Below, one piece after another: positions 24,771 to 64,000 of a DNA stretch of 64,000 bases. How positions within the stretch are numbered: the stretch's first letter is position 1; every line of letters starts with the position of its first letter. The translations under genes and the position numbers were made by a program. The notes under the pieces were generated by a model. That model saw only the letters and a program-made list of their open reading frames with translations. It searched no databases and was not told where the DNA came from. Source of the stretch: Protonemura montana (lineage: Eukaryota > Arthropoda > Insecta > Plecoptera > Nemouridae); NCBI GenBank assembly GCA_947568835.1, contig OX387610.1, forward strand, positions 16,911,050 through 16,975,049. Direction: 5' to 3'.

Positions 24771-26779
24771 TTGACACTCCAGTCACTCTGCCATTCTATT
24801 CAGACGCTCCAGACTATCTGCCACGCTTGCCAGACGCTCCAGAAACTCTGCCACGCTAGCCAGACGATCCAGACACTTTGCCTCGCTACCCAGACGCTCC
24901 AGACACTCTGCCTCAATAGCCAGTCGCTTCAGACACTCTGCCTCGCTAGCTAGACGCTTCATACACTCTACCATGCTAGTCAGACGCTCTAGACTTTCTG
25001 CCTCGCTAGAAAGACGCTCCTGACACACTGCCTCGCTACCCAGACGCTCCAGACACTATGCCTCGCTACCCAGACGCTCCAGAGACTCTGCCTCGCTAGC
25101 CAGACGCTCAAGACACTCTGCCTCGCTAGCTAGACGCTCTAGACACTCTGCCATGCTAACCAGACGCTCCAGACTATCCGCCACGCTAGCCATAGGCTCC
25201 AGACACTCTGCCACGCTAGCAAGACGCTCCAGACACTCAGCCACGCTCGCCAGACGCTCCAGACACTCTGCCTCGCTATTCAGACGCTCCAGTTACTCTA
25301 CCATGCTAGCTAGACGCTCCAGACACTCTGCCTCGCTAGCCAGGCGCTCCAGACACTCTGCATCGCTACCCAGACGCTCCAGACACTCTGCTATGCTAGC
25401 TAGACGCTCCAGACACTCTGTCTTGCTACCCAGACGCTCCAGACTCTCTGTCTTGCTACCCAGGCGCTCCAGACACTCTGCCTCGCTACCCAGACGCTCC
25501 AGACACTCTGCTACGCTAGCTAGACGCTCCAGACACTCTGATTCGCTACCCAGACGCTCCAGACACTTTGCCTCGCTACTTAGACACACCAGACACTCTG
25601 CTTCGCTAGCTAGACGCTCCAGACACTCTGCCTTGCTACCCAGACAATCCAGACTCTCTGCCATTCTAGTCAGACGCTCCAGACACTCTGCCTCGCTAGC
25701 CAGGCGCTCCAGACACTCTACCTAGCCACCCAGACGCTCCAGGCACTCTGCCTCGCCAGCAAGGCACTTCAGACACTCTGTTTTGCTAGCTAGACGGTCC
25801 AGACACTCAGCCATGCTAGCCAGACGCTCCAGGTACTCTGCCTTGCTACCCAGACGCTCCAGACACTCTGCCATTCTAGTCAGACGCTCCAGACTATCTG
25901 CCACGCTAGCCAGAGGCTCCAGACACTCTGCCACGCTAGCCATACGCTGCAGACACTCAGCTATGCTAGCCACACGCTCCAGACTTTCTGCCATGCTAGC
26001 CAGACGCTCGAGACACCCTGCCACGCTAGCCAGACGCTCAGACACTCTGATTCGCTACCCAGACGCTCCAGACAATTTGCCTCGCTACCCAGACACACCA
26101 GACACTCTGCCTCGCTAGCTAGACGCTCCAGACACTCTGCCTTGCTACCCAGACCCTCCAGACACTCTGCCTTGCTACCCAGACCCTCCAGACATTCTGC
26201 CTCGCTAGCCAGGTGCTCCAGACACTCTGCCTCGCTACCCAGACGCTCCAGACTATCTGCCACGCTAGCCAGTGGCTCCAGACTATCTGCCACGCTAGCC
26301 AGAGGCTGCAGACACTCTGCCACGCTAGCTAGACGCTCCAGACACTCTGCCATGCTAGCCAGACGCTCCAGACACTCTGATTCGCTACTTCGACGTTCCA
26401 GACACTTTGCCTTGCTACTGAGACGCTCCAGACACTCTGCCTCGCTAGCCAGGCGCTTCAGAAGCTCTGCCCCGCTAGTAAGGCTCTCCAGACACTCGGC
26501 CATGCCAGCCAGACTCTTCAGTTTATCTGCCACGCTAGCAAGAGGTTCCAGACACTCTGCCACGCTAGCTAGACGCTCCAGACACTCTGCTATTCTAGTC
26601 AGATGCTCCAGACTATCTGCCACGCTAGCCAGAGGCTCCAGACACTCTGCCACGCTAGCAAGACACTCCAGACACTCTGTCTTGCTAGCCAGGCGCTCCA
26701 GACACTCTGCCACGCTAGCTAGACGCTCCAGACACTCTGCCTTGCTACCCAGACGCTCCAGACACTCTGCTTCGCTAGC
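24771..26779 (+). repeat. Higher-order module 15, N-type long, 2,009 bp
   Basis: 67 monomers minus one base (gctcagacac near 26,038). It contains the left end of the 19,911-bp block (25,171). Its right-hand part therefore has a near-identical partner at 45,082-46,690. Confidence 0.9.
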
Positions 26780-27889
26780 TTGACACTCCAGTCACTCTGC
26801 CATTCTATTCAGACGCTCCAGACTATCTGCCACGCTTGCCAGACGCTCCAGAAACTCTGCCACGCTAGCCAGACGATCCAGACACTTTGCCTCGCTACCC
26901 AGACGCTCCAGACACTCTGCCTTGCTACCCAGACCCTCCAGACACTCTGCCTTGCTAGCCAGGTGCTCCAGACACTCTGCCTCGCTACCCAGACGCTCCA
27001 GACTATCTGCCACGCTAGCCAGTGGCTCCAGACTTTCTGACACGCTAGCTAGACGCTCCAGACACTCTGCCATTCTAGTCAGACGCTCCAGACTATCTGC
27101 CACGCTAGCCAGAGGCTCCAGACACTCTGCCACGCTAGCCATACGCTGCAGACACTCAGCTATGCTAGCCACACGCTCCAGACTTTCTGCCACGCTAGCC
27201 AGACGCTCGAGACACTCTGCCACGCTAGCCAGACGCTCCAGACACTCTGATTCGCTACCCAGACGCTCCAGACACTTTGCCTCGCTACCCAGACACACCA
27301 GACACTCTGCCTTGCTACCCAGACCCTCCAGACACTCTGCCTTGCTAGCCAGGTGCTCCAGACACTCTGCCTCGCTACCCAGACGCTCCAGACTATCTGC
27401 CACGCTAGCCAGAGGCTGCAGACACTCTGCCACGCTAGCTAGACGCTCCAGACACTCTGCCATGCTAGCCAGACGCTCCAGACACTCTGATTCGCTACTT
27501 CGACGTTCCAGACACTTTGCCTTGCTACTGAGACGCTCCAGACACTCTGCCTCGCTAGCCAGGCGCTTCAGAAGCTCTGCCCCGCTAGTAAGGCTCTCCA
27601 GACACTCGGCCATGCCAGCCAGACTCTTCAGTTTATCTGCCACGCTAGCAAGAGGTTCCAGACACTCTTCCACGCTAGCTAGACGCTCCAGACACTCTGC
27701 TATTCTAGTCAGATGCTCCAGACTATCTGCCACGCTAGCCAGAGGCTCCAGACACTCTGCCACGCTAGCAAGACACTCCAGACACTCTGTCTTGCTAGCA
27801 AGGCGCTCCAGACACTCTGCCACGCTAGCTAGACGCTCCAGACACTCTGCCTTGCTACCCAGACGCTCCAGACACTCTGCTTCGCTAGC
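26780..27889 (+). repeat. Higher-order module 16, L-type short, 1,110 bp
   Basis: 37 monomers. It is paired with module 20 at +19,911 bp. Differences seen: 27,004 (t; a at 46,915), 27,061 (g; a at 46,972) and 27,669 (t; g at 47,580). Confidence 0.9.
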
Positions 27890-29898
27890 TTGACACTCCA
27901 GTCACTCTGCCATTCTATTCAGACGCTCCAGACTATCTGCCACGCTTGCCAGACGCTCCAGAAACTCTGCCACGCTAGCCAGACGATCCAGACACTTTGC
28001 CTCGCTACCCAGACGCTCCAGACACTCTGCCTCAATAGCCAGTCGCTTCAGACACTCTGCCTCGCTAGCTAGACGCTTCATACACTCTACCATGCTAGTC
28101 AGACGCTCTAGACTTTCTGCCTCGCTAGAAAGACGCTCCTGACACACTGCCTCGCTACCCAGACGCTCCAGACACTATGCCTCGCTACCCAGACGCTCCA
28201 GAGACTCTGCCTCGCTAGCCAGACGCTCAAGACACTCTGCCTCGCTAGCTAGACGCTCTAGACACTCTGCCATGCTAACCAGACGCTCCAGACTATCCGC
28301 CACGCTAGCCATAGGCTCCAGACACTCTGCCACGCTAGCAAGACGCTCCAGACACTCAGCCACGCTCGCCAGACGCTCCAGACACTCTGCCTCGCTATTC
28401 AGACGCTCCAGTTACTCTACCATGCTAGCTAGACGCTCCAGACACTCTGCCTCGCTAGCCAGGCGCTCCAGACACTCTGCATCGCTACCCAGACGCTCCA
28501 GACACTCTGCTACGCTAGCTAGACGCTCCAGACACTCTATCTTGCTACCCAGACGCTCCAGACTCTCTGTCTTGCTACCCAGGCGCTCCAGACACTCTGC
28601 CTCGCTACCCAGACGCTCCAGACACTCTGCTACGCTAGCTAGACGCTCCAGACACTCTGATTCGCTACCCAGACGCTCCAGACACTTTGCCTCGCTACTT
28701 AGACACACCAGACACTCTGCTTCGCTAGCTAGACGCTCCAGACACTCTGCCTTGCTACCCAGACAATCCAGACTCTCTGCCATTCTAGTCAGACGCTCCA
28801 GACACTCTGCCTCGCTAGCCAGGCGCTCCAGACACTCTACCTCGCCACCCAGACGCTCCAGGCACTCTGCCTCGCCAGCAAGGCACTTCAGACACTCTGT
28901 TTTGCTAGCTAGACGGTCCAGACACTCAGCCATGCTAGCCAGACGCTCCAGGTACTCTGCCTTGCTACCCAGACGCTCCAGACACTCTGCCATTCTAGTC
29001 AGACGCTCCAGACTATCTGCCACGCTAGCCAGAGGCTCCAGACACTCTGCCACGCTAGCCATACGCTGCAGACACTCAGCTATGCTAGCCACACGCTCCA
29101 GACTTTCTGCCACGCTAGCCAGACGCTCGAGACACCCTGCCACGCTAGCCAGACGCTCAGACACTCTGATTCGCTACCCAGACGCTCCAGACAATTTGCC
29201 TCGCTACCCAGACACACCAGACACTCTGCCTCGCTAGCTAGACGCTCCAGACACTCTGCCTTGCTACCCAGACCCTCCAGACACTCTGCCATGCTACCCA
29301 GACCCTCCAGACATTCTGCCTCGCTAGCCAGGTGCTCCAGACACTCTGCCTCGCTACCCAGACGCTCCAGACTATCTGCCACGCTAGCCAGTGGCTCCAG
29401 ACTATCTGCCACGCTAGCCAGAGGCTGCAGACACTCTGCCACGCTAGCTAGACGCTCCAGACACTCTGCCATGCTAGCCAGACGCTCCAGACACTCTGAT
29501 TCGCTACTTCGACGTTCCAGACACTTTGCCTTGCTACTGAGACGCTCCAGACACTCTGCCTCGCTAGCCAGGCGCTTCAGAAGCTCTGCCCCGCTAGTTA
29601 GGCTCTCCAGACACTCTGCCATGCCAGCCAGACGCTTCAGTTTATCTGCCACGCTAGCCAGAGGTTCCAGACACTCTGCCACGCTAGCTAGACGCTCCAG
29701 ACACTCTGCTATTCTAGTCAGATGCTCCAGACTATCTGCCACGCTAGCCAGAGGCTCCAGACACTCTGCCACGCTAGCAAGACACTCCAGACACTCTGTC
29801 TTGCTAGCCAGGCGCTCCAGACACTCTGCCACGCTAGCTAGACGCTCCAGACACTCTGCCTTGCTACCCAGACGCTCCAGACACTCTGCTTCGCTAGC
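27890..29898 (+). repeat. Higher-order module 17, N-type long, 2,009 bp
   Basis: 67 monomers minus one base (gctcagacac near 29,157). It is paired with module 21 at +19,911 bp. Differences seen: 28,539 (a; g at 48,450) and 29,525 (t; g at 49,436). Confidence 0.9.
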
Positions 29899-32478
29899 TT
29901 GACACTCCAGTCACTCTGCCATTCTATTCAGACGCTCCAGACTATCTGCCACGCTTGCCAGACGCTCCAGAAACTCTGCCACGCTAGCCAGACGATCCAG
30001 ACACTTTGCCTCGCCACCCAGACGCTCCAGACACTCTGCCTCAATAGCCAGTCGCTTCAGACACTCTGCCTCGCTAGCTAGACGCTTCATACACTCTACC
30101 ATGCTAGTCAGACGCTCTAGACTTTCTGCCTCGCTAGAAAGACGCTCCAGACACTATGCCTCGCTACCCAGACGCTCCAGAGACTCTGCCTCGCTAGCCA
30201 GACGCTCAAGACACTCTGCCTCGCTAGCTAGACGCTCTAGACACTCTGCCATGCTAACCAGACGCTCCAGACTATCCGCCACGCTAGCCATAGGCTCCAG
30301 ACACTCTGCCACGCTAGCAAGACGCTCCAGACACTCAGCCACGTTCGCCAGACGCTCCAGACACTCTGCCTCGCTATTCAGACGCTCCAGTTACTCTACC
30401 ATGCTAGCTAGACGCTCCAGACACTCTGCCTCGCTAGCCAGGCGCTCCAGACACTCTGCATCGATACCCAGACGCTCCAGACACTCTGCTACGCTAGCTA
30501 GACGCTCCAGACACTCTGTCTTGCTACCCAGACGCTCCAGACTCTCTGTCTTGCTACCCAGGCGCTCCAGACACTCTGCCTCGCTACCCAGACGCTCCAG
30601 ACACTCTGCTTCGCTAGCTAGACGCTCCAGACACTCTGATTCGCTACCCAGACGCTCCAGACACTTTGCCTCGCTACTTAGACACACCAGACACTCTGCT
30701 TCGCTAGCTAGACGCTCCAGACACTCTGCCTTGCTACCCACACAATCCAGACTCTCTGCCATTCTAGTCAGACGCTCCAGACACTCTGCCTCGCTAGCCA
30801 GGCGCTCCAGACACTCTACCTCGCCACCCAGACGCTCCAGGCACTCTGCCTCGCCAGCAAGGCACTTCAGACACTCTGTTTTGCTAGCTAGACGGTCCAG
30901 ACACTCAGCCATGCTAGCCAGACGCTCCAGGTACTCTGCCTTGCTACCCAGACGCTCCAGACACTCTGCCATTCTAGTCAGACGCTCCAGACTATCTGCC
31001 ACGCTAGCCAGAGGCTCCAGACACTCTGCCACGCTAGCCATACGCTGCAGACACTCAGCTATGCTAGCCACACGCTCCAGACTTTCTGCCACGCTAGCCA
31101 GACGCTCGAGACACCCTGCCACGCTAGCCAGACGCTCCAGACACTCTGATTCGCTACCCAGACGCTCCAGACAATTTGCCTCGCTACCCAGACACACCAG
31201 ACACTCTGCCTCGCTAGCTAGACGCTCCAGACACTCTGCCTTGCTACCCAGACCCTCCAGACACTCTGCCTTGCTACCCAGACCCTCCAGACATTCTGCC
31301 TCGCTAGCCAGGTGCTCCAGACACTCTGCCTCGCTACCCAGACGCTCCAGACTATCTGCCACGCTAGCCAGTGGCTCCAGACTATCTGCCACGCTAGCCA
31401 GAGGCTGCAGACACTCTGCCACGCTAGCTAGACGCTCCAGACACTCTGCCATGCTAGCCAGACGCTCCAGACACTCTGATTCGCTACTTCGACGTTCCAG
31501 ACACTTTGCCTTGCTACTGAGACGCTCCAGACACTCTGCCTCGCTAGCCAGGCGCTTCAGAAGCTCTGCCCCGCTAGTTAGGCTCTCCAGACACTCTGCC
31601 ATGCCAGCCAGACGCTTCATTTTATCTGCCACGCTAGCCAGAGGTTCCAGACACTCTGCCACGCTAGCTTGACGCTCCAGACACTCTGCTTTTCTGGTCA
31701 GATGCTCCAGACTATCTGCCACGCTAGCCAGAGGCTCCAGACACTCTGCCACGCTAGCAAGACACTCCAGACACTCTGTCTTGCTAGCCAGGCGCTCCAG
31801 ACACTCTGCCACGCTAGCTAGACGCTCCAGACACTCTGCCTTGCTACCCAGACCCTCCAGACACTCTGCCTTGCTACCCAGACCCTCCAGACATTCTGCC
31901 TCGCTAGCCAGGTGCTCCAGACACTCTGCCTCGCTACCCAGACGCTCCAGACTATCTGCCACGCTAGCCAGTGGCTCTAAACTATCTGCCACGCTAGCCA
32001 GAGGCTGCAGACACTCTGCCACTCTAGCTAGACGCTCCAGACACTCTGCTATGCTTGCCAGACGCTCCAGACACTCTGATTCGCTACTTCGACGTTCCAG
32101 ACACTTTGCCTTGCTACTGAGACGCTCCAGACACTCTGCCTCGCTAGCCAGGCGCTTCAGAAGCTCTGCCCCGCTAGTTAGCCTCTCCAGACACTCTGCC
32201 ATGCCAGCCAGACGCTTCAGTTTATCTGCCACGCTAGCCAGAGGTTTCAGACACTCTGCCACGCTAGCTAGACGCTCCAGACACTCTGCTATTCTAGTCA
32301 GATGCTTCAGACTATCTGCCACGCTAGCCAGAGGCTCCAGACACTCTGCCACGCTAGCAAGACACTCCAGACACTCTGTCTTGCTAGCCAGGCGCTCCAG
32401 ACACTCTGCCACGCTAGCTAGACGCTCCAGACACTCTGCCTTGCTACCCAGACGCTCCAGACACTCTGCTTCGCTAGC
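29899..32478 (+). repeat. Higher-order module 18, N-type extended, 2,580 bp
   Basis: Exactly 86 monomers with no net indel. The site that carries gctcagacac in the other long modules has the full gctccagacac here (near 31,134). An extra L-like stretch is present, so the gaccctcc-gaccctcc pair occurs twice (about 31,251-31,290 and 31,851-31,890). It lacks one monomer after caatagccag, where tagaaagacgctcc joins directly to cagacactatg near 30,150. It is paired with module 22 at +19,911 bp. Confidence 0.9.
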
Positions 32479-35400
32479 TTGACACTCCAGTCACTCTGCC
32501 ATTCTATTCAGACGCTCCAGACTATCTGCCACGCTTGCCAGACGCTCCAGAAACTCTGCCAAGCTAGCCAGACGCTCCAGACACTATGCCTCGCTACCCA
32601 GACGCTCCAGAGACTTTGCCTCGCTAGCCAGACGCTCAAGACACTCTGCCTCGCTAGCTAGACGCTCTAGACACTCTGCCATGCTAACCAGACGCTCCAG
32701 ACTATCCGCCACGCTAGCCATAGGCTCCAGACACTCTGCCACGCTTGCAAGACGCTCCAGACACTCAGCCACGCTCGCCAGACGCTCCAGACACTCTGCC
32801 TCGCTATTCAGACGCTCCAGTTACCCTACCATGCTAGCTAGACGCTCCAGACACTCTGCCTCGCTAGCCAGGCGCTCCAGACACTCTGCCTCGCTACCCA
32901 GACGCTCCAGACACTCTGCTACGCTATCTAGACGCTCCAGACACTCTGTCTTGCTACCCAGACGCTCCAGACTCTCTGTCTTGCTACCCAGGCGCTCCAG
33001 ACACTCTGCCTCGCTACCCAGACGCTCCAGACACTCTGCTACGCTAGCTAGAAGCTCCAGACACTCTGATTCGCTACCCAGACGCTCCAGACACTTTGCC
33101 TCGCTACTTAGACACACCAGACACTCTGCTTCGCTAGCTAGACGCTCCAGACACTCTGCCTTGCTACCCAGACCCTCCAGACACTCTGCCTTCCTAGCCG
33201 GGTGCTCCAGACACTCAGCCTCGCTACCCAGACGCTCCAGACTATCTGCCACGCTAGCCAGACGCTCCAGACTATCCGCCACGCTAGCTATAGGCTCCAG
33301 ACACTCAGCCACGCTCGCCAGACGCTCCAGACACTCTGCCTCGCTATTCAGATGCTCCAGTTACTCTACCATGCTAGCTAGACGCTCCAGACACACTGCC
33401 TCGCTAGCCAGGCGCTCCAGACACTCTGCCTCGCTACCCAGACGCTCCAGGCACTCTGCCTCGCCAGCAAGGCACTTCAGACACTCTTTTTCGCTAGCTA
33501 GACGGTCCAGACACTCAGCCATGCTAGCCAGACGCTCCAGGTACTCTGCCTCGCATACCCAGACGCTCCAGACACTTTGCCTCGCTACCCAGACGCTCCA
33601 GACACTCTGCCTTGCTAGCTAGACGCTCTAGACACTCTGCCATGATAACCAGATGCTCCAGACTATCCGCCACGCTAGCCATAGGCTCCAGACACTCGGC
33701 CACGCTAGCAAGACGCTCCAGACACTCAGCCACGCTCGCCAGACGTTCCAGACACTCTGCCTCGCTATTCAGACGCTCCAGTTACTCTACCATGCTAGCT
33801 AGACGCTCCAGACACACTGCCTCGCTAGCCAGGCGCTCCAGACACTCTTGCTCGCTACCCAGACGCTCCAGACACTCTGCCTCGCTAGCCAGGCGCTCCA
33901 GACACTCTGCCTCGCTACCCAGACGCTCCAGGCACTCTGCCTCGCCAGCAAGTTACTTTAGACACTCTGTTTCGCTAGCTAGACGGTCCAGACACTCAGC
34001 CATGCTAGCCAGACGCTCCAGGTATTCTGCCTTGCTACCCAGACGCTCCAGACACACTGCCTCGCTTGCCAGGCGCTCAAAACACTCTGCCACGCTAGCA
34101 AGACGCTCCAGACACTCTGCCACGCTAGCCAGACGCTCCAGACACTCTGCCACGCTAGCAAGACGCTCCAGACACTCTGCCTCGCTACCCAGACGCTCAA
34201 GATTTTCTGCCTCGCTAGCCAGGCGCTTTAGACACTCTGCCTCGCTAGCTAGACGCCCCAGACACTCTACCATGCTAGCCAGACGCTATAGACTATCCGC
34301 CACGCTAGCCATAGGCTCCAGACACTCTGCCACGCTAGCAAGACGCTCCAGACACTCAGCCACGCTCGCCAGACGCTCCAGACACTCTGCCTCGCTATTC
34401 AGACGCTCCAGTTACTCTACCATGCTAGCTAGACGCTCCAGACACTCTGCCTCGCTAGCCAGGCGCTCCAGACACTCTGCCTCGCTACCCAGACGCTCCA
34501 GACTCTCTGCTACGCTAGCTAGACGCTCCAGACACTCTGTCTTGCTACCCAGACGCTCCAGACTCTCTGTCTTGCTACCCAGGCGCTCCAGACACTCTGC
34601 GTCGCTACCCAGACGCTCCAGACACTCTGTCTTGCTATCCAGACGCTCCAGACCCTCTGCTTTGCTAGCCAGGCGCTCCAGACACTCTGATTCGCTACCC
34701 AGACGCTCCAGACACTTTGCCTCGCTACTTAGACACACCAGACACTCTGCTTCGCTAGATAGACACTCCAGACACTCTGCCTTGCTACCCAGACCCTCCA
34801 GACACTCTGCCTTCCTAGCCGGGTGCTCCAGACACTCAGCCTCGCTACCCAGACGTTCCAGACACTCTGCCTCGCTATTCAGATGCTCCAGTTACTCTAC
34901 CATGCTAGCTAGAAGCTCCAGACACACTGCCTCGCTAGCCAGGCGCTCCAGACACTCTGCCTCGCTACCCAGGCGCTCCATACACTCTGCCTCGCTACCC
35001 AGGCGCTCCAGACACTCTGCCTCGCTACCCTGGCGATCCAGACACTCTGCCTTGCTACCCAGACGCTCCAGGCACTCTGCCTCGCAAGCAAGGCACTTCA
35101 GACACTCTTTTTCGCTAGCTAGACGGTCCAGACACTCAGCCATGCTGGCCAGACGCTCCAGGTACTCTGCCTTGCTACCCAGACGCTCCAGACACTCTGC
35201 TATTCTAGTCAGACGCTCCAGACTATCTGCCACGCTAGCCAGAGGCTCCAGACACTCTGCCACGCTAGCCATACGCTCTAGACACTCTGCTATGCTAGCC
35301 ACACGCTCCAGACTTTCCGCCACGCTAGCCAGACGCTCTAGACTTTCTGCCTCGCTAGCAAGACGCTCCTGACACTCTGCCTCGCTACCCAGACCCTCCA

Positions 35401-36403
35401 GACACTCTGCCTCGCTAGCCAGGCGCTCCAGACACGCTGCCTCGCTACCCAGACGCTCCAGACTATCTGCCACGCTAGCCAGTGGCTCCAGATTATCTGC
35501 CACGCTAGCCAGAGGCTCCAGACACTCTGCCACGCTAGCAAGACGCTCCAGACACTCTGCCTCGCTAGCCAGCCGCTCCAGACACTCTGCCATGCTAGCC
35601 AGAGATTTCAGACACTCTGCTACGCTAGCTAGACGCTCCAGACACTCTGCCACGCTATCTTGACGCTCCAGACACTCTGCCTTGCTACTAAGACCCTCCA
35701 GACACTCTGCCTCGCTAGCCAGGCGCTCCAGACACTCTGCCTCGCTACCCAGACGCTCTAGACACTCTGCCTCGCTAGCCAGCCGCTCCAGACACTCTGC
35801 CATGACAGCCAGACGTTTCAGACTTACTGCCACGCTAGCCAGAGGTTTCAGACACTCTGCTACGCTAGCAAGACTCTTCAGACTCTCTGCCTCGCTAGCT
35901 AGATGCTCCAAACACTCTGCCTTGCTACCCAGACCCTCCAGACACTCTACCTCGCTAGCCAGGCGCTCCAGACACGCTGCCTCGCTACCCAGACGCTCCA
36001 GACTATCTGCCACGCTAGCCAGTGGCTCCAGATTATCTGCCACGCTAGCCAGAGGCTCCAGACACTCTGCTTCGCTAGCTAGACGCTCCAGACACTCTGC
36101 CACGCTAGCCAGCCGCTCCAGACACTTTGCCTCGCTACCAAGACGCTCCAGACACTCTGCCTCGCTAGCTAGACGCTCTAGACACTCTGCCATGATAACC
36201 AGATGCTCCAGACTATCCGCCACGCTAGCCATAGGCTCCAGACACTCGGCCACGCTAACAAGACGCTCCAGACACTCAGCCACGCTCGCCAGATGTTCCA
36301 GACACTCTGCCTCGCTATTCAGACGCTCCAGTTACTCTACCATGCTAGCTAGACGCTCCAGACACACTGCCTCGCTAGCCAGACGCTCCAGACACTCTGT
36401 TTT

Positions 36404-37530
36404 GCTAGCTAGTCGCTCTAGACACTAAGCCTCGGTAAAAAGACACTCCAGACACTTTTCCCCGCTTGCCAGACTCTCTAGACAGTCTGCCTTAGAAGCA
36501 AGACGCTCCAGACATTCTGCCTCACTTGCTAGACGCTCTAAACACTCTGTCTTAGAAGCAAGACGCTCCAGACACCCTGTTTGGCATGCCTGACGCTCCA
36601 GATACTCTGCTTTGCTTGCCAGACGCTCCAGACACTCTACCACGCTAGCCAGAAGCTACAGACACTCTACTTTGCTAGGAAGACGCTTTAGACACTCTAC
36701 CTCGGTAATAAAACGCTCCAGAAACTCTGCCTCGCTTGCAAGACGCTCCAGACTATCTGCCTTCCTAGCCAGACTCTTCAGAAGCTCTGCCATGCTAGCA
36801 ATTCGCTCCAGACACTTTGCCTCACTAGCAAGAAGCTCCAGGCACTCTGCTTTGCTTGCCAGACGCTCCAGACACTCATCCATGCTAGCCAGACGCTCCA
36901 GACACGCTGCCTCGCTAAAAAGACGCTTCAGACACTCTGCCTCGCTAAAAAGACGCTCTAGACACTCTGCTTTGCTAGCAAGACGTTTCAGACACTCTTC
37001 CTCGCTAGCTAGACGCCCCAGACACTCTGCCTTGGTAGTAAGATGCTCCAGACTATCTGCCACGCTAGCTAGACGCTCCAGACACTCTGCCTTGGTAGTT
37101 AGATGCTCCAGACTATCTGCCACGCTAGCTAGACGCTCCAGACACTCTGCCTCGCTACCCAGACGCTCCAGAAACTCTGCCTCGCTAGATTGGCGTCAGA
37201 CACTTTGCCTTGCTAGACAGACGCTCCATACACTCTCGTTTTATTGCAAATCGCTTCAGACACTTTGCCTCGGTAATATCACGCTCAAGAAACTCTGCAT
37301 CGCTAGCAAGACGCTCCAGACACTCTGCCACGCTAGTCAGACGCTCCAGACACTCTGCCTCGCTAGCAAGACGCTCCAGAATTTCTGCTTAACTATCCAG
37401 ACGCTCCAGACACTCTGCCTCGCTAACAAGACGCTCCAGAATTTCTGCTTAACTATCCAGACGCCCCAGACACTCTGCCATGCTAGCCAGACGCTGCAGA
37501 CACTCTGCCTCACTAGCAAAAAGCTCCAGA
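36404..37530 (+). repeat. Divergent monomer block D1
   Basis: A run of monomers that depart from the main consensus but keep the 30-bp phase. They include cctcggtaaaaagacactcc, cttttccccgcttgcc, ccttagaagcaagacgctcc, tttggcatgcctgacgctcc, cctcggtaataaaacgctcc and ttaactatccagacg. Near 37,187 the monomer ctagattggcgtcagacac is 2 bases short. It is followed by a cgttttattgcaaatcgctt monomer and a cggtaatatcacgctc monomer. This is the longest D copy. It contains a roughly 240-bp stretch (about 36,610-36,850) missing from D2. Confidence 0.88.
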
Positions 37531-38291
37531 CACTCTGGCTTGCTATCCAGACGCTCTAGACCCTCTGCTTTGCTAGCCAGGCGCTCCAGACACTCTGATT
37601 CGCTACCCAGACGCTCCAGACACTCTGCTACGCTAGCTAGACGCTCCAGACACTCTGTCTTGCTACCCAGACGCTCCAGACTCTCTGTCTTGCTACCCAG
37701 GCGCTCCAGACACTCTGCCTCGCTACCCAGACGCTCCAGACACTCTGTCTTGCTATCCAGACGCTCCAGACCCTCTGCTTTGCTAGCCAGGCGCTCCAGA
37801 CACTCTGATTCGCTACCCAGACGCTCCAGACACTTTGCCTCGCTACTTAGACACACCAGACACTCTGCTTCGCTAGCTAGACGCTCCAGACACTCTGCCT
37901 TGCTACCCAGACCCTCCAGACACTCTGCCTTCCTAGCCGGGTGCTCCAGACACTCTGACATGCTAGCCAGAGATTTCAGACACTCTGCTACGCTAGCTAG
38001 ACGCTCCAGACACTCTGCCACGCTAGCAAGACGCTCCAGACACTCTGCCTCGCTACCCAGACGCTCAAGAGACTCTGCCTCGATAGCCAGGCGCTTTAGA
38101 CACTCTGCCTCGCTAGCCAGGCGCTCCAGACACTCTGCCTCGCTACCCAGACGCCCCAGACACTCTGCTACGCTAGCTAGACGCTCCAGACACTCTGTCT
38201 TGCTACCCAGACGCTCCAGACACTCTGCTACGCTAGCTAGACGCTCCAGACATTCTGTCTTGCTACCCAGACGCTCCAGACTCTCTGTCTT

Positions 38292-39235
38292 GCTAGCTAG
38301 TCGCTCTAGACACTAAGCCTCGGTAAAAAGACACTCCAGACACTTTTCCCCGCTTGCCAGACTCTCCAGACAGTCTGCCTTAGAAGCAAGACGCTCCAGA
38401 CATTCTGCCTCACTTGCTAGACGCTCTAAACACTCTGTCTTAGAAGCAAGACGCTCCAGACACCCTGTCTCGCTTGCCAGACGCTCCAAACACTCTGTCT
38501 TAGAAGCAAGACGCTCCAGACACCCTGTTTGGCATGCCTGACGCTCCAGGCACTCTGCTTTGCTTGCCAGACGCTCCAGACACTCATCCATGCTAGCCAG
38601 ACGCTCCAGACACGCTGCCTCGCTATAAAGACGCTTCAGACACTCTGCCTCGCTAACAAGACGCTCTAGACACTCTGCTTTGCTAGCAAGACGTTTCAGA
38701 CACTCTTCCTCGCTAGCTAGACGCCCCAGACACTCTGCCTTGGTAGTAAGATGCTCCAGACTATCTGCCACGCTAGCTAGACGCTCCAGACACTCTGCAT
38801 TGGTAGTTAGATGCTCCAGACTATCTGCCACGCTAGCTAGACGCTCCAGACACTCTGCCTTGGTAGTTAGATGCTCCAGACTATCTGCCACGCTAGCTAG
38901 ACGCTCCAGACACTCTGCCTCGCTACCCAGACGCTCCAGAAACTCTGCCTCGCTAGATTGGCGTCAGACACTTTGCCTTGCTAGACAGACGCTCCATACA
39001 CTCTCGTTTTATTGCAAATCGCTTCAGACACTTTGCCTCGGTAATATCACGCTCAAGAAACTCTGCCTCGCTAGCAAGACGCTCCAGACACTCTGCCACG
39101 CTAGTCAGACGCTCCAGACACTCTGCCTCGCTAGCAAGACGCTCCAGAATTTCTGCTTAACTATCCAGACGCTCCAGACACTCTGCCATGCTAGCCAGAC
39201 GCTGCAGTCACTCTGCCTCACTAGCAAAAAGCTCC
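38292..39235 (+). repeat. Divergent monomer block D2
   Basis: It has the same entry (gctagtcgctctagacacta) and exit (cactagcaaaaagctcc) as D1, with the 2-base deletion near 38,957. It lacks the segment equivalent to 36,610-36,850. It has three, not two, copies of the ttggtag-tagatgctcc / actatctgccacg pair (38,751-38,890). It also has an extra ctcgcttgccagacgctcc pair near 38,470. Confidence 0.86.
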
Positions 39236-41020
39236 AGACACTCTGTCTTGCTACCCAGACGCTCCAGACTCTCTGTCTTGCTACCCAGGCGCTCCAGACA
39301 CTCTGCCTCGCTACCCAGACGCTCCAGACACTCTGTCTTGCTATCCAGACGCTCCAGACCCTCTGCTTTGCTAGCCAGGCGCTCCAGACACTCTGATTCG
39401 CTACCCAGACGCTCCAGACACTTTGCATCGCTACTTAGACACACCAGACACTCTGCTTCGCTAGCTAGACGCTCCAGACACTCTGCCTTGCTACCCAGAC
39501 CCTCCAGACACTCTGCCTTCCTAGCCGGGTGCTCCAGACACTCAGCCTCGCTACCCAGACGCTCCAGACTATCTGCCACGCTAGCCAGTGGCTCCAGACA
39601 CTCTGCCACGCTAGCCAGAGGATCCAGACACTCAGCCTCGCTATTCAGATGCTCCAGTTACTCTACCATGCTAGCTAGACGCTCCAGACACACTGCCTCG
39701 CTAGCCAGGCGCTCCAGACACTCTGCCTCGCTACCCAGGCGCTCCAGACACTCTGCCTTGCTACCCAGACGCTCCAGGCACTCTGCCTCGCCAGCAAGTC
39801 ACGTCAGACACTCTTTTTCGCTAGCTAGACGGTCCAGACACTCAGCCATGCTAGCCAGACGCTCCAGGTACTCTGCCTTGCTACCCAGACGCTCCAGACA
39901 CTCTGCTATTCTAGTCAGACGCTCCAGACACTCTGCCACGCTAGCCATACGCTCTAGACACTCTGCTATGCTAGCCACACGCTCCAGACTTTCCGCCACG
40001 CCAGCCAGACGCTCTAGACTTTCTGCCTCGCTAGCAAGACGCTCCTGACACTCTGCCTCGCTACCCAGACGCTCCAGACACTTTGCCTCGCTACCCAGAC
40101 GCTCCAGACACTCTGCCTCGCTAGCTAGACGCTCTAGACACTCTGCCATGATAACCAGATGCTCCAGACTATCCGCCACGCTAGCCATAGGCTCCAGACA
40201 CTCGGCCATGCTAGCAAGACGCTCCAGACACTCAGCCACGCTCGCCAGACGTTCCAGACACTCTGCCTCGCTATTCAGACGCTCCAGTTACTCTACCATG
40301 CTAGCTAGACGCTCCAGACACACTGCCTCGCTAGCCAGGCGCTCCAGACACTCTGGCTCGCTACCCAGACGCTCCAGACACTCTGCCTCGCTAGCCAGGC
40401 GCTCCAGACACTCTGCCTCGCTACCCAGACGCTCCAGGCACTCTGCCTCACCAGCAAGTTACTTTAGACACTCTGTTTCGCTAGCTAGACGGTCCAGACA
40501 CTCAGCCATGCTAGCCACACGCTCCAGGTACTCTGCCTTGCTACCCAGACGCTCCAGACACACTGCCTCGCTTGCTAGGCGCTCAAAACACTCTGCCACG
40601 CAAGCAAGACGCTCCAGACACTCTGCCACGCTAGCCAGACGCTCCAGACACTCTGCTACGCTAGCAAGACGCTCCAGACACTCTGCCTCGCTACCCAGAC
40701 GCTCAAGAGACTCTGCCTCGCTAGCCAGGCGCTTTAGACACTCTGCCTCGCTAGCTAGACGCTCCAGACACTCTACCATGCTAGCCAGACGCTATAGACT
40801 ATCCGCCACGCTAGCCATAGGCTCCAGACACTCTGCCACGCTAGCAAGACGCTCCAGACACTCAGCCACGCTCGCCAGACGCTCCAGACACTCTGCCTCG
40901 CTATTCAGACGCTCCAGTTACTCTACCATGCTAGCTAGACTCTCCAGACACTCTGCCTCGCTAGCCAGGCGTTTCAGACACTCTGCCTCGCTACCCAGAC
41001 GCTCCAGACTCTCTGTCTTG

Positions 41021-42142
41021 CAAGCTAGTCGCTCTAGACACTAAGCCTCGGTAAAAAGACACTCCAGACACTTTTCCCCGCTTGCCAGACTCTCCAGACA
41101 GTCTGCCTTAGAAGCAAGACGCTCCAGACATTCTGCCTCACTTGCTAGACGCTCTAAACACTCTGTCTTAGAAGCAAGACGCTCCAGACACCCTGTCTCG
41201 CTTGCCAGACGCTCCAAACACTCTGTCTTAGAAGCAAGACGCTCCAGACACCCTGTTTGGCATGCCTGACGCTCCAGATACTCTGCTTTGCTTGCCAGAC
41301 GCTCCAGACACTCTCCCACGCTAGCCAGAAGCTACAGACACTCTACTTTGCTAGGAAGACGCTTTAGACACTCTACCTCGGTAATAAAACGCTCCAGAAA
41401 CTCTGCCTCGCTTGCAAGACGCTCCAGACTATCTGCCTTCCTAGCCAGACTCTTCAGAAGCTCTGCCATGCTAGCAATTCGCTCCAGACACTTTGCCTCA
41501 CTAGCAAGAAGCTCCAGGCACTCTGCTTTGCTTGCCAGACGCTCCAGACACTCATCCATGCTAGCCAGACGCTCCAGACACGCTGCCTCGCTAAAAAGAC
41601 GCTTCAGACACTCTGCCTCGCTAACAAGACGCTCTAGACACTCTGCTTTGCTAGCAAGACGTTTCAGACACTCTTCCTCGCTAGCTAGACGCCCCAGACA
41701 CTCTGCCTTGGTAGTAAGATGCTTTAGACTATCTGCCACGCTAGCTAGACGCTCCAGACACTCTGCCTTGGTAGTTAGATGCTCCAGACTATCTGCCACG
41801 CTAGCAAGACGCTCCAGACACTCTGCCTCGCTATCCAGACGCTCCAGAAACTCTGCCTCGCTAGATTGGCGTCAGACACTTTGCCTTGCTAGACAGACGC
41901 TCCATACACTCTCGTTTTATTGCAAATCGCTTCAGACACTTTGCCTCGGTAATATCACGCTCAAGAAACTCTGCCTCGCTAGCAAGACGCTCCAGACACT
42001 CTGCCACGCTAGTCAGACGCTCCAGACACTCTGCCTCGCTAGCAAGACGCTCCAGAATTTCTGCTTAACTATCCAGAGTCTCCAGACACTCTGCCATGCT
42101 AGCCAGACGCTGCAGACACTCTGCCTCACTTGCAAAAAGCTC
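41021..42142 (+). repeat. Divergent monomer block D3
   Basis: It matches D1 at an offset of about 4,676 bp through the central part (37,210 equals 41,886) and includes the segment missing from D2. The 2-base deletion is near 41,863. The exit differs: ttgcaaaaagctcc is followed by the AT-rich monomer at 42,175-42,210. Confidence 0.86.
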
Positions 42143-42174
42143 CAGACACTCTGCATCGCTACCCAGGCGCTCCA

Positions 42175-42210
42175 GACGCTTTGCTTTAATATTTTAATGC
42201 TTTAAACACT
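42175..42210 (+). repeat. AT-rich aberrant monomer
   Basis: The most diverged monomer in this copy: gctttgctttaatattttaa followed by tgctttaaacactctg. It keeps the 30-bp spacing, but its core is almost all A and T where the family is C-rich. Its origin is not apparent. It could be an old mutated monomer or a small conversion from elsewhere. Confidence 0.85.
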
Positions 42211-42649
42211 CTGCTACGCTAGCTAGTGGCTCCAGACACTCTGCCACGCTAGCTTGACGCTCCAGGCACTCTGCCTCGCTACTTAGACGCTCCAGAAACT
42301 CTGCCACGCTAGCCAGGCACTCCAGACACTCTGGCTCGCTACCAGGACGCTCCAGACACTCTGCCTTCCTAGCCAGCCGCTCCAGACACTCTGCCATGCT
42401 AGCCAGAGATTTCAGACACTCTGCTACGCTAGCTAGACGCTCCAGACACTCTGCCACGCTAGCTAGAAGCTCCAGACACTCTGCCTTGCTATTTAGACCC
42501 TCCAGACACTCTGCCTCGCTAGCCAGGCGCTCCAGACACTCTGCCTCGCTACCCAGACGCTCCAGACTATCTGCCACGCTAGCCAGTGGCTCCAGAATAT
42601 TTGCCACGCTAGCCAGAGGCTCCAGACACTCTGCCACGCTAGCTAGACG

Positions 42650-49809: not shown

Positions 49810-52389
49810 TTGACACTCCAGTCACTCTGCCATTCTATTCAGACGCTCCAGACTATCTGCCACGCTTGCCAGACGCTCCAGAAACTCTGCCACGCTAGCC
49901 AGACGATCCAGACACTTTGCCTCGCTACCCAGACGCTCCAGACACTCTGCCTCAATAGCCAGTCGCTTCAGACACTCTGCCTCGCTAGCTAGACGCTTCA
50001 TACACTCTACCATGCTAGTCAGACGCTCTAGACTTTCTGCCTCGCTAGAAAGACGCTCCAGACACTATGCCTCGCTACCCAGACGCTCCAGAGACTCTGC
50101 CTCGCTAGCCAGACGCTCAAGACACTCTGCCTCGCTAGCTAGACGCTCTAGACACTCTGCCATGCTAACCAGACGCTCCAGACTATCCGCCACGCTAGCC
50201 ATAGGCTCCAGACACTCTGCCACGCTAGCAAGACGCTCCAGACACTCAGCCACGTTCGCCAGACGCTCCAGACACTCTGCCTCGCTATTCAGACGCTCCA
50301 GTTACTCTACCATGCTAGCTAGACGCTCCAGACACTCTGCCTCGCTAGCCAGGCGCTCCAGACACTCTGCATCGATACCCAGACGCTCCAGACACTCTGC
50401 TACGCTAGCTAGACGCTCCAGACACTCTGTCTTGCTACCCAGACGCTCCAGACTCTCTGTCTTGCTACCCAGGCGCTCCAGACACTCTGCCTCGCTACCC
50501 AGACGCTCCAGACACTCTGCTTCGCTAGCTAGACGCTCCAGACACTCTGATTCGCTACCCAGACGCTCCAGACACTTTGCCTCGCTACTTAGACACACCA
50601 GACACTCTGCTTCGCTAGCTAGACGCTCCAGACACTCTGCCTTGCTACCCAGACAATCCAGACTCTCTGCCATTCTAGTCAGACGCTCCAGACACTCTGC
50701 CTCGCTAGCCAGGCGCTCCAGACACTCTACCTCGCCACCCAGACGCTCCAGGCACTCTGCCTCGCCAGCAAGGCACTTCAGACACTCTGTTTTGCTAGCT
50801 AGACGGTCCAGACACTCAGCCATGCTAGCCAGACGCTCCAGGTACTCTGCCTTGCTACCCAGACGCTCCAGACACTCTGCCATTCTAGTCAGACGCTCCA
50901 GACTATCTGCCACGCTAGCCAGAGGCTCCAGACACTCTGCCACGCTAGCCATACGCTGCAGACACTCAGCTATGCTAGCCACACGCTCCAGACTTTCTGC
51001 CACGCTAGCCAGACGCTCGAGACACCCTGCCACGCTAGCCAGACGCTCCAGACACTCTGATTCGCTACCCAGACGCTCCAGACAATTTGCCTCGCTACCC
51101 AGACACACCAGACACTCTGCCTCGCTAGCTAGACGCTCCAGACACTCTGCCTTGCTACCCAGACCCTCCAGACACTCTGCCTTGCTACCCAGACCCTCCA
51201 GACATTCTGCCTCGCTAGCCAGGTGCTCCAGACACTCTGCCTCGCTACCCAGACGCTCCAGACTATCTGCCACGCTAGCCAGTGGCTCCAGACTATCTGC
51301 CACGCTAGCCAGAGGCTGCAGACACTCTGCCACGCTAGCTAGACGCTCCAGACACTCTGCCATGCTAGCCAGACGCTCCAGACACTCTGATTCGCTACTT
51401 CGACGTTCCAGACACTTTGCCTTGCTACTGAGACGCTCCAGACACTCTGCCTCGCTAGCCAGGCGCTTCAGAAGCTCTGCCCCGCTAGTTAGGCTCTCCA
51501 GACACTCTGCCATGCCAGCCAGACGCTTCATTTTATCTGCCACGCTAGCCAGAGGTTCCAGACACTCTGCCACGCTAGCTTGACGCTCCAGACACTCTGC
51601 TTTTCTGGTCAGATGCTCCAGACTATCTGCCACGCTAGCCAGAGGCTCCAGACACTCTGCCACGCTAGCAAGACACTCCAGACACTCTGTCTTGCTAGCC
51701 AGGCGCTCCAGACACTCTGCCACGCTAGCTAGACGCTCCAGACACTCTGCCTTGCTACCCAGACCCTCCAGACACTCTGCCTTGCTACCCAGACCCTCCA
51801 GACATTCTGCCTCGCTAGCCAGGTGCTCCAGACACTCTGCCTCGCTACCCAGACGCTCCAGACTATCTGCCACGCTAGCCAGTGGCTCTAAACTATCTGC
51901 CACGCTAGCCAGAGGCTCCAGACACTCTGCCACTCTAGCTAGACGCTCCAGACACTCTGCTATGCTTGCCAGACGCTCCAGACACTCTGATTCGCTACTT
52001 CGACGTTCCAGACACTTTGCCTTGCTACTGAGACGCTCCAGACACTCTGCCTCGCTAGCCAGGCGCTTCAGAAGCTCTGCCCCGCTAGTTAGCCTCTCCA
52101 GACACTCTGCCATGCCAGCCAGACGCTTCAGTTTATCTGCCACGCTAGCCAGAGGTTTCAGACACTCTGCCACGCTAGCTAGACGCTCCAGACACTCTGC
52201 TATTCTAGTCAGATGCTTCAGACTATCTGCCACGCTAGCCAGAGGCTCCAGACACTCTGCCACGCTAGCAAGACACTCCAGACACTCTGTCTTGCTAGCC
52301 AGGCGCTCCAGACACTCTGCCACGCTAGCTAGACGCTCCAGACACTCTGCCTTGCTACCCAGACGCTCCAGACACTCTGCTTCGCTAGC
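49810..52389 (+). repeat. Higher-order module 22, N-type extended, 2,580 bp
   Basis: 86 monomers with no net indel, the partner of module 18. Differences seen: 49,926 (t; c at 30,015), 50,652 (g; c at 30,741) and 51,918 (c; g at 32,007). Confidence 0.9.
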
Positions 52390-55300
52390 TTGACACTCCA
52401 GTCACTCTGCCATTCTATTCAGACGCTCCAGACTATCTGCCACGCTTGCCAGACGCTCCAGAAACTCTGCCAAGCTAGCCAGACGATCCAGACACTATGC
52501 CTCGCTACCCAGACGCTCCAGAGACTTTGCCTCGCTAGCCAGACGCTCAAGACACTCTGCCTCGCTAGCTAGACGCTCTAGACACTCTGCCATGCTAACC
52601 AGACGCTCCAGACTATCCGCCACGCTAGCCATAGGCTCCAGACACTCTGCCACGCTAGCAAGACGCTCCAGACACTCAGCCACGCTCGCCAGACGCTCCA
52701 GACACTCTGCCTCGCTATTCAGACGCTCCAGTTACCCTACCATGCTAGCTAGACGCTCCAGACACTCTGCCTCGCTAGCCAGGCGCTCCAGACACTCTGC
52801 CTCGCTACCCAGACGCTCCAGACACTCTGCTACGCTATCTAGACGCTCCAGACACTCTGTCTTGCTACCCAGACGCTCCAGACTCTCTGTCTTGCTACCC
52901 AGGCGCTCCAGACACTCTGCCTCGCTACCCAGACGCTCCAGACACTCTGCTACGCTAGCTAGAAGCTCCAGACACTCTGATTCGCTACCCAGACGCTCCA
53001 GACACTTTGCCTCGCTACTTAGACACACCAGACACTCTGCTTCGCTAGCTAGACGCTCCAGACACTCTGCCTTGCTACCCAGACCCTCCAGACACTCTGC
53101 CTTCCTAGCCGGGTGCTCCAGACACTCAGCCTCGCTACCCAGACGCTCCAGACTATCTGCCACGCTAGCCAGACGCTCCAGACTATCCGCCACGCTAGCT
53201 ATAGGCTCCAGACACTCAGCCACGCTCGCCAGACGCTCCAGACACTCTGCCTCGCTATTCAGATGCTCCAGTTACTCTACCATGCTAGCTAGACGCTCCA
53301 GACACACTGCCTCGCTAGCCAGGCGCTCCAGACACTCTGCCTCGCTACCCAGACGCTCCAGGCACTCTGCCTCGCCAGCAAGGCACTTCAGACACTCTTT
53401 TTCGCTAGCTAGACGGTCCAGACACTCAGCCATGCTAGCCAGACGCTCCAGGTACTCTGCCTCGCATACCCAGACGCTCCAGACACTTTGCCTCGCTACC
53501 CAGACGCTCCAGACACTCTGCCTTGCTAGCTAGACGCTCTAGACACTCTGCCATGATAACCAGATGCTCCAGACTATCCGCCACGCTAGCCATAGGCTCC
53601 AGACACTCGGCCACGCTAGCAAGACGCTCCAGACACTCAGCCACGCTCGCCAGACGTTCCAGACACTCTGCCTCGCTATTCAGACGCTCCAGTTACTCTA
53701 CCATGCTAGCTAGACGCTCCAGACACACTGCCTCGCTAGCCAGGCGCTCCAGACACTCTTGCTCGCTACCCAGACGCTCCAGACACTCTGCCTCGCTAGC
53801 CAGGCGCTCCAGACACTCTGCCTCGCTACCCAGACGCTCCAGGCACTCTGCCTCGCCAGCAAGTTACTTTAGACACTCTGTTTCGCTAGCTAGACGGTCC
53901 AGACACTCAGCCATGCTAGCCAGACGCTCCAGGTATTCTGCCTTGCTACCCAGACGCTCCAGACACACTGCCTCGCTTGCCAGGCGCTCAAAACACTCTG
54001 CCACGCTAGCAAGACGCTCCAGACACTCTGCCACGCTAGCCAGACGCTCCAGACACTCTGCCACGCTAGCAAGACGCTCCAGACACTCTGCCTCGCTACC
54101 CAGACGCTCAAGATTTTCTGCCTCGCTAGCCAGGCGCTTTAGACACTCTGCCTCGCTAGCTAGACGCCCCAGACACTCTACCATGCTAGCCAGACGCTAT
54201 AGACTATCCGCCACGCTAGCCATAGGCTCCAGACACTCTGCCACGCTAGCAAGACGCTCCAGACACTCAGCCACGCTCGCCAGACGCTCCAGACACTCTG
54301 CCTCGCTATTCAGACGCTCCAGTTACTCTACCATGCTAGCTAGACGCTCCAGACACTCTGCCTCGCTAGCCAGGCGCTCCAGACACTCTGCCTCGCTACC
54401 CAGACGCTCCAGACTCTCTGCTACGCTAGCTAGACGCTCCAGACACTCTGTCTTGCTACCCAGACGCTCCAGACTCTCTGTCTTGCTACCCAGGCGCTCC
54501 AGACACTCTGCGTCGCTACCCAGACGCTCCAGACACTCTGTCTTGCTATCCAGACGCTCCAGACCCTCTGCTTTGCTAGCCAGGCGCTCCAGACACTCTG
54601 ATTCGCTACCCAGACGCTCCAGACACTTTGCCTCGCTACTTAGACACACCAGACACTCTGCTTCGCTAGATAGACACTCCAGACACTCTGCCTTGCTACC
54701 CAGACCCTCCAGACACTCTGCCTTCCTAGCCGGGTGCTCCAGACACTCAGCCTCGCTACCCAGACGTTCCAGACACTCTGCCTCGCTATTCAGATGCTCC
54801 AGTTACTCTACCATGCTAGCTAGAAGCTCCAGACACACTGCCTCGCTAGCCAGGCGCTCCAGACACTCTGCCTCGCTACCCAGGCGCTCCATACACTCTG
54901 CCTCGCTACCCAGGCGCTCCAGACACTCTGCCTCGCTACCCTGGCGATCCAGACACTCTGCCTTGCTACCCAGACGCTCCAGGCACTCTGCCTCGCAAGC
55001 AAGGCACTTCAGACACTCTTTTTCGCTAGCTAGACGGTCCAGACACTCAGCCATGCTGGCCAGACGCTCCAGGTACTCTGCCTTGCTACCCAGACGCTCC
55101 AGACACTCTGCTATTCTAGTCAGACGCTCCAGACTATCTGCCACGCTAGCCAGAGGCTCCAGACACTCTGCCACGCTAGCCATACGCTCTAGACACTCTG
55201 CTATGCTAGCCACACGCTCCAGACTTTCCGCCACGCTAGCCAGACGCTCTAGACTTTCTGCCTCGCTAGCAAGACGCTCCTGACACTCTGCCTCGCTACC

Positions 55301-62560: not shown

Positions 62561-63131
62561 CTCCAGACACGCTGCCTCGCTTAAAAGACGCTTCAGACAC
62601 TCTGCCTCGCTAACAAGACGCTCTAGACACTCTGCTTTGCTAGCAAGACGTTTCAGACACTCTTCCTCGCTAGCTAGACGCCCCAGACACTCTGCCTTGG
62701 TAGTAAGATGCTCCAGACTATCTGCCACGCTAGCTAGACGCTCCAGACACTCTGCCTTGGTAGTTAGATGCTCCAGACTACCTGCCACGCAAGCTAGACG
62801 CTCCAGACACTCTGCCTCGCTTCCCAGACGCTCCAGAAACTCTGCCTCGCTAGATTGGCGTCAGACACTTTGCCTTGCTAGACAGACGCTCCATACACTC
62901 TCGTTTTATTGCAAATCGCTTCAGACACTTTGCCTCGGTAATATCACGCTCAAGAAACTCTGCCTCGCTAGCAAGACGCTCCAGACACTCTGCCACGCTA
63001 GTCAGACGCTCCAGACACTCTGCCTCGCTAGCAAGACGCTCCAGAATTTCTGCTTAACTATCCAGACGCTCCAGACACTCTGCCATGCTAGCCAGACGCT
63101 GCAGACACTCTGCCTCACTAGCAAAAAGCTC
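62561..63131 (+). repeat. Divergent monomer block D4, copy 2
   Basis: The counterpart of 42,650-43,220. No difference was seen. Confidence 0.86.
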
Positions 63132-64000
63132 CAGACACTCTCTCTTGCTATCCAGACGCTCCAGACCCTCTGCTTTGATAGCCAGGCGCTCCAGACACCC
63201 TGATTCGCTACCCAGACGCTCGAGACACTCTGCTACGCTAGCTAGACGCTCCAGACACTCTGTCTTGCTACCCAGACGCTCCAGACTCTCTGTCTTGCTA
63301 CCCAGGCGCTCCAGACACTCTGCCTCGCTACCCAGACGCTCCAGACACTCTGTCTTGCTATCCAGACGCTCCAGACCCTCTGCTTTGCTAGCCAGGCGCT
63401 CCAGACACTCTGATTCGCTACCCAGACGCTCCAGACACTTTGCCTCGCTACTTAGACACACCAGACACTCTGCTTCGCTAGCTAGACGCTCCAGACACTC
63501 TGCCTTGCTACCCAGACCCTCCAGACACTCTGCCTTCCTAGCCGGGTGCTCCAGACACTCAGCCTCGCTACCCAGACGCTCCAGACTATCTGCCACGCTA
63601 GCCAGACGCTCCAGACTATCCGCCACGCTAGCCATAGGCTCCAGACACTCAGCCACGCTCGCCAGACGTTCCAGACACTCTGCCTCGCTATTCAGATGCT
63701 CCAGTTACTCTACCATGCTAGCTAGACGCTCCAGACACACTGCCTCGCTAGCCAGGCGCTCCAGACACTCTGCCTCGCTACCCAGGCGCTCCAGACACTC
63801 TGCCTTGCTACCCAGACGCTCCAGGCACTCTGCCTCGCCAGCAAGGCACTTCAGACACTCTTTTTCGCCAGCTAGACGGTCCAGACACTCAGCCATGCTA
63901 GCCAGACGCTCCAGGTACTCTGCCTTGCTACCCAGACGCTCCAGACACTCTGCTATTCTAGTCAGACGCTCCAGACTATCTGCCACGCTAGCCAGAGGCT

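Follow-up and report, generated by a model that had tools for sequence, protein, structure and literature searches.

Stepwise amplification of a 19.9-kb block within a 30-bp satellite array, most readily explained by homology-guided unequal exchange

Higher-order repeats (HORs) are described, in PMC8122249, for the human alpha-satellite and, as dimers and trimers, for Chrysolina carnifex. The same text sets out Smith-type evolution of tandem repeats by unequal crossover (PMC8122249), and a break-induced replication model of satellite expansion is presented in two sources (PMC11034957; PMC8122249), both routes being published models for satellites. The locus analysed here lies in a window of 64,000 bp (contig C13, 16,911,050-16,975,049) and resembles an HOR in that a block of diverged monomers appears to have been amplified as a unit, so that its copies are 99.9% alike (13 mismatches in 27,326 bp) as against about 79% identity for random in-register monomers. 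Unlike an HOR, the unit comprises some 664 monomers (19.9 kb) and is present in only three copies; it sits amid blocks of 1.1 to 31.2 kb with no regular unit across the array, 24 tandem duplications of many periods being found in 268 kb. As in Smith-type evolution, out-of-register, homology-guided exchange would both create and homogenise tandem blocks; the difference is that single events are legible here, with parental sites, a junction tract and an unduplicated homologue preserved in one assembly. The break-induced replication model would, we infer, predict the same junctions and the same in-register duplications.

We propose that the block arose by local amplification within the satellite array, through homology-guided unequal exchange or break-induced replication, and hold this to be very probable. 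The locus is best explained by ordinary homology-guided unequal exchange, unusually legible; from sequence, unequal crossing over and break-induced replication are indistinguishable. The process itself has long been known, and what the locus offers is resolution, with parental and derived states kept together, rather than a new kind of system. Our picture of satellite expansion otherwise comes largely from modelling and from the averaged structure of arrays. At this locus a single amplification is traceable at base level, from an unduplicated homologue through a 71-bp exchange tract and subsequent divergence to a 48-bp second exchange interval and a hybrid middle copy, and the array further permits register keeping and the identity used to be counted duplication by duplication.

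The window is satellite DNA almost from end to end. Tandem Repeats Finder (TRF) reports one short unit repeated head to tail from base 6 to base 64,000 (consensus ACGCTCCAGACACTCTGCCTCGCTAGCCAG, no strand assigned), in 2134.2 copies of 30 bp with 79% matches and 0% indels, and the array extends past both window ends, occupying 66 of 66 4-kb bins in the surrounding 264 kb. Phase is kept closely: 8,705 of the 8,817 monomers in the 264 kb are exactly 30 bp long, and the monomer phase changes only 103 times. Thirty bp is also ten codons, and 103 open reading frames in the window reach 150 aa or more, the longest 820 aa, as might be expected if the array were protein-coding or selected as a ten-codon repeat and its copies were gene duplications. 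We give this reading almost no credence. Stops per monomer are close to column expectation across the six frames (0.045 against 0.040 expected in the open forward frame, 0.062 against 0.056 in the open reverse frame), as would be expected of non-coding satellite DNA, and the monomer phase is broken by 28- and 29-bp monomers and by unit lengths such as 19,911. That such frames occur follows rather from the consensus, two of whose six frames contain few stops. At gathering scores, Rfam gave no match within the window, there is no indication that the amplified block has its own function, and the seven monomer-derived strings of 14-17 bases compared had no match in the literature. Within the monomer, a dyad, CAGA-N3-TCTG, is conserved at 0.92 against 0.83 elsewhere (762 distinct monomers; p=0.007, the positions having been picked post hoc).

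The genome assembly, probably that of an insect, comprises 258,480,905 bases in 34 contigs, and C13 accounts for 17,828,049 bp of it. The array is still present in the final 2 kb of C13; sampled points from 16.78 Mb to the contig end are array save those at 17.70 and 17.72 Mb, while at 16.76 Mb and at sampled points farther left it is absent, and the distribution of these points puts the C13 array at about 1.05 Mb as sampled. Other array sites are the end of C2, a position near the end of C5, contig C6 and the start of C8. An exact 27-mer of the consensus occurs 8,487 times forward and 551 times in reverse genome-wide; at the density of one per 655 bp seen in the 264 kb read, this extrapolates to a rough total of 5.9 Mb of satellite. 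Three consecutive perfect consensus monomers occur nowhere in the genome. The array as a whole may represent putative centromere-proximal or subtelomeric heterochromatin.

Against this background a far closer match stands out (feature coordinates within the window are on the + strand). The original prediction described a head-to-tail duplication with a period of 19,911 bp, and indeed the sequence from 25,171 recurs at that offset as far as the window end, with mismatches at 11 of 18,919 bp. A chance origin is excluded, since for pairs drawn at random in register the mean identity is 79% and the median exact run 7 bp. Our comparison took in a further 70 kb on the left and 130 kb on the right, in which the offset match continues past the window to 52,496/72,407, the stretch over which the 13 mismatches given above were counted. 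Copy 1 thus occupies 25,171-45,081, and copy 2, running from 45,082 to the window end at 64,000 and beyond, ends at 64,992, where it was predicted to end, because the match runs on to 72,407. The tandem arrangement therefore stands, but the count of two copies was incomplete: the search past the window for the end and for further copies found the end and, from 64,993 to about 84,423, one rearranged third copy of 19,431 bp. Its offsets in sequence are 20,091, 20,181, 19,311, 19,341, 19,401 and 19,431, and all six of its length changes relative to copy 2 are multiples of 30 bp. The unit itself is 663 x 30 + 21 bp. The 11 differences between copies 1 and 2 within the window are unevenly placed, none lying beyond unit position 7,576, and the longest exact run between these copies is 12,283 bp. 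Judging from the sequence, we take the 19,911-bp repeat to be real and correctly measured within the window, the number of copies being that of the assembly.

To the left of 25,171 similarity had been described as lost; it drops instead to the in-register background, which stays at 0.68-0.90 in 60-bp windows as far left as about 23,131 (2.0 kb), and fades near 22,950. As this sequence stays in register, similarity is reduced rather than lost. The neighbourhood is itself rich in tandem structure, with nested tandem blocks at 11,132-24,710 (periods 6,777, 2,999, 1,889 and 1,110 bp) and a further block of period 3,119 bp at 22,797-30,014 that extends into the beginning of copy 1. The surrounding satellite, copy 3, a second exchange (described below) that made copy 2 a hybrid, and the 23 further tandem duplications in 268 kb all go beyond the original account.

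The borders of the copies point to where the first exchange would have taken place. We label the left edge of copy 1 at 25,171 as X, the copy borders at 45,082 and 64,993 as J1 and J2, and the end of copy 3 at 84,424 as Y. Over the 180 bp left of position 0, J1 agrees with Y and not with X; from position 0 to +70 X, J1, J2 and Y are all identical; and from +71 rightward J1 is of X type and not of Y type. The parental site X thus carries a 71-bp tract (25,171-25,241) identical to Y at 84,424-84,494, and the corresponding junction tract (45,082-45,152) has Y-type sequence on its left, X-type sequence on its right and a common sequence in between, as is expected of an unequal-exchange junction. 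The base-level junction originally placed at 45,081/45,082 holds as the left limit of the shared tract; it does not itself fix the breakpoint, as the exchange may lie anywhere in the 71 bp. A 40-mer spanning J1 occurs 43 times in the 264 kb, so that the junction is not new sequence in itself.

Evidence from outside the C13 copies comes from contig C6. Two marker 60-mers, each restricted to the three copies within the 268 kb, were searched genome-wide: the first gives three matches on C13 and one each on C5 and C6; the second likewise matches C13 three times and C6 once, but has two matches on C5. C6 is a separate contig of 1.1 Mb, and in the stretch compared (168,001-198,000) it carries a single unit at 173,217-193,457 (20,241 bp). 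The left flank of this unit is that of X, identical across the 240 bp compared, and its right flank is of Y type, with two single-base differences left of the tract. Beyond the unit, C6 and C13 are alike at 0.96-1.0 identity (400-bp windows) between about 22,755 and the left edge of the unit, and at 0.988-0.998 over 84,424-85,623 (400-bp windows), and the identity declines farther out on either side. A single copy set between the two parental flanks is what the pre-duplication state should look like, and it lends support to the reading of the head-to-tail duplication as a product of unequal exchange. Divergence between the two contigs is 0.20-0.24% in the first 7,415 bp, and elsewhere 4-7 sites in 2,110 bp and 3-4 sites in 3,893 bp; the rate is therefore uneven. 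C6 may represent the second haplotype of this locus or a different chromosome, or may itself be recombinant.

The block on C5 presents a different picture. Both right-hand marker copies there, spaced 15,916 bp apart, lead into a Y-type right flank with 0 mismatches in 300 bp; no J-type copy border was found in 8.5 kb of C5, nor a left border of the block in 2.5 kb at the expected place. With Y-type flanks and no J border found, C5 seems to carry a separate duplication and gives no sign of the C13 event. A J-like context on C5, 600 bp before the block end, was considered as a copy border and set aside, as it corresponds to an internal site of the block itself (C13 44,482; 0-1 mismatches on each side).

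Using C6 as an outgroup to polarise the differences among copies, and leaving the rearranged middle of copy 3 (unit 9,686-14,750) out of the base comparisons, we find copy 2 to be a mosaic. At unit positions 1834, 1891, 4355 and 6837 it agrees with copy 3 against C6 and copy 1, and at 6886 it agrees with copy 1 against C6 and copy 3. Copies 1 and 2 additionally lack 180 bp near unit position 7405 (about 32,575-32,576 in copy 1, near 52,486-52,523 in copy 2) and 90 bp near 9722, both of which are present in C6 and copy 3. Copy 2 therefore resembles copy 3 as far as 6,837 and copy 1 from 6,886 onward, which confines the putative second exchange to a 48-bp interval at unit 6,838-6,885 (51,919-51,966 in copy 2; 32,008-32,055 in copy 1). 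The polarised shared changes are few, four joining copies 2 and 3, and one base and two length changes joining copies 1 and 2. Private changes are found at unit 224, 2499, 3369, 4845, 5571, 7405 and 7576 in copy 1, at 7677, 7678, 8784, 15095, 15986 and 18948 in copy 3 (together with its length changes) and at the single base 19860 in copy 2; an apparent length change of -600 in copy 2 at 64,934 is an aligner fault at two adjacent substitutions and was not counted. The asymmetry is also evident in plain counts: between copies 1 and 2 there are 9 differences in the left 6,885 bp as against 3 in the remaining 13,026 bp (Fisher p=0.005), and between copies 2 and 3 there are none in the left part and 8 in the right, where 7,962 bp are aligned (p=0.009), both p-values being optimistic because the split point was taken from the same data. 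A switch at unit 7,577-7,676 (Fisher p=4e-4), obtained before the outgroup was brought in, is superseded, its p-value included, by the position 6,838-6,885, as the outgroup makes 7,405 and 7,576 later private changes of copy 1.

These observations can be ordered into a putative two-step history. An initial exchange between X and Y inside their shared 71-bp tract would have produced two copies, which would then have diverged. A second exchange, at unit 6,838-6,885, between the first copy of one chromatid and the second copy of the other would have produced three, with the hybrid middle copy arising as its product in one step. Either exchange may have been an out-of-register crossover between sister chromatids or homologues, or break-induced replication, guided in each case by monomer homology. 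The divergence values fit two ages: 0.10-0.13% (first duplication) and 0-0.02% (second).

A mosaic middle copy would also be expected from a looped walk through an unresolved repeat graph which, like a switch between haplotypes, could have written the unit two or three times during assembly. Such an error is the main rival because the exact stretches are so long: 12,283 bp between copies 1 and 2, and 24,964 bp within a neighbouring duplication of 31,199 bp. Both lengths are near or above those usual for accurate long reads, and across them an assembler could miscount. Furthermore, the C13 contig ends inside the array, and the single-copy homologue lies on a contig of its own. A simple loop, however, would repeat copies unchanged, yet copy 2 has its private base at 19,860 and copy 1, right of the switch, its private bases at 7,405 and 7,576; nor are the 180 bp or the rearrangements inside copy 3 present in copy 2, which is unlike a simple graph loop (haplotype switching aside). 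The junction tract and the register, moreover, match the behaviour seen at other duplications in the array. We accordingly consider an assembly artefact unlikely, though less so than the other alternatives, and retain amplification by homology-guided exchange as the preferred reading.

Those other duplications form the broader record. In 268 kb, 24 tandem duplications of at least 98% identity, with periods from 1,110 to 31,199 bp, cover 66% of the sequence. Their left flanks keep the 30-bp register (shift 0) in 24 of 24 cases and their right flanks in 23 of 24, the sole exception being 87,083-88,339; this is the register behaviour expected of unequal exchange. Because several of the 24 descend from a single event that was copied along with a larger block, independent events are fewer, at about 17, and a binomial value for 24 of 24 overstates the evidence; a version with 15 of 15 was also computed. 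In a looser set of 368 repeated segment pairs of at least 1 kb, shift 0 was found in 341 of the 363 left flanks and 288 of the 314 right flanks that could be scored (5 left and 44 right flanks being too dissimilar, and 10 right flanks not comparable). The tracts identical at the exchange points span 6-71 bp in nine duplications, against a random in-register median of 7 (p=3e-4). These nine of the 24 were chosen by hand, with 71 bp entered for the 19,911-bp duplication; three repeats of events already counted were dropped (the second 2,128, the second 1,918 and the 1,889 at 11,132), as were twelve duplications in which a partial extra copy in the overhang hides the tract length. The other 23 tandem duplications in the 268 kb were probably made by the same process as the 19,911-bp block.

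It is on this larger set that copying without homology can be weighed, whether by end joining, by re-insertion of an extrachromosomal circle or by template switching at microhomology. Some of the tracts are indeed short enough for it, at 6-13 bp, and satellite circles are a published route of amplification (PMC8122249). Joining without homology would nevertheless be expected to keep register in about 1 case in 30, whereas all 24 left flanks keep it, which argues against end joining; the length changes within copies comprise whole monomers, and the tracts are longer than random in-register expectation. Taken together, these features leave homology-free copying very improbable. A circle re-inserted at its own site by homologous recombination would have the same appearance as the homology-guided exchange that we favour.

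Beyond the single locus, a wider picture may be offered tentatively, and we consider it somewhat less probable than its negation: satellite growth would proceed mainly by large in-register steps (1-31 kb) for which tens of identical bp, within DNA that is about 80% similar, would suffice, with large pieces of array additionally exchanged between chromosome ends. On that view the assembly would document individual satellite recombination events along with their parental sites. Three markers specific to the block follow one another in identical order on C5, C6 and C13, across about 90-120 kb, and C6 and C13 are about 0.2% apart where compared. Elsewhere in the assembly, tRNA genes flank COX1 on contig C34 (15,885 bp), in the order I-Q-M-(ND2)-W-C-Y-COX1-L2-(COX2)-K-D (ND2 and COX2 named by eye), which we take to be the insect/pancrustacean mitochondrial order.

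A second large tandem duplication is present on the same contig, C13 (OX387610.1), to the right of the window, with a period of 31,199 bp and an extent of C13:17,043,522-17,105,941 (window-relative positions 132,473-194,892). Over 31,221 bp its copies show only two mismatches, and they share an exact run of 24,964 bp; given its length, this duplication offers a means of testing the trustworthiness of the assembly.

Arrays on separate contigs show a large-scale relationship to one another, since three block-specific 60-mers occur in identical order, over a span of ~90-120 kb, on C13 (16.94-17.15 Mb), on C5 (20.01-20.20 Mb) and on C6 (0.18-0.43 Mb), the contig that carries a single unduplicated unit. 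The third of these 60-mers is the commoner, with 10 copies on C5, 14 on C6 and 7 on C13. The 19,911-bp unit's right-hand marker appears twice within C5:20,023,317-20,039,292, at a spacing of 15,916 bp, each time followed by the Y-type flank, that is, the sequence lying to the right of the last copy of the unit on C13. This C5 pair appears to be a duplication of overlapping sequence, separate from the one on C13.

Further along C13, neither of two samples taken within C13:17,700,001-17,720,400 is satellite, and the array is therefore broken between 17.68 and 17.75 Mb. One of the two samples contains a 266-aa open frame, which by eye looks similar to a retroelement gag. Where stretches adjoining the array were sampled (C13:16,700,001-16,760,400 and C2:29,100,001-29,150,400), putative C2H2 zinc-finger coding sequence, again recognized by eye, and other tandem repeats were observed next to the satellite.

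Contig ends in this one genome carry two telomere-type repeats, (TTTGG)n and (TTAGG)n. The former is found at the left end of C13 (C13:1-695), at the right end of C11 and at the right end of C1, in a terminal cluster whose first listed match is at 33,120,494 and of which the final 400 bp were read; the latter is found at the right ends of C12 and C17 and at the left end of C16. Counts of the TTAGG 40-mer were 5,509 forward and 4,163 reverse, with occurrences also inside C1, and those of the TTTGG 40-mer were 1,042 and 689, respectively. The main text of the TeloBase paper (PMC10767889) nowhere contains TTTGG.

Separately, C4:5,759,425-5,779,255 holds a nuclear copy of mitochondrial COX1 that scores equal to the mitochondrial contig, C34, together with a second, partial COX1 copy; the likely source is either mitochondrial DNA that was inserted recently or a fault in the assembly.
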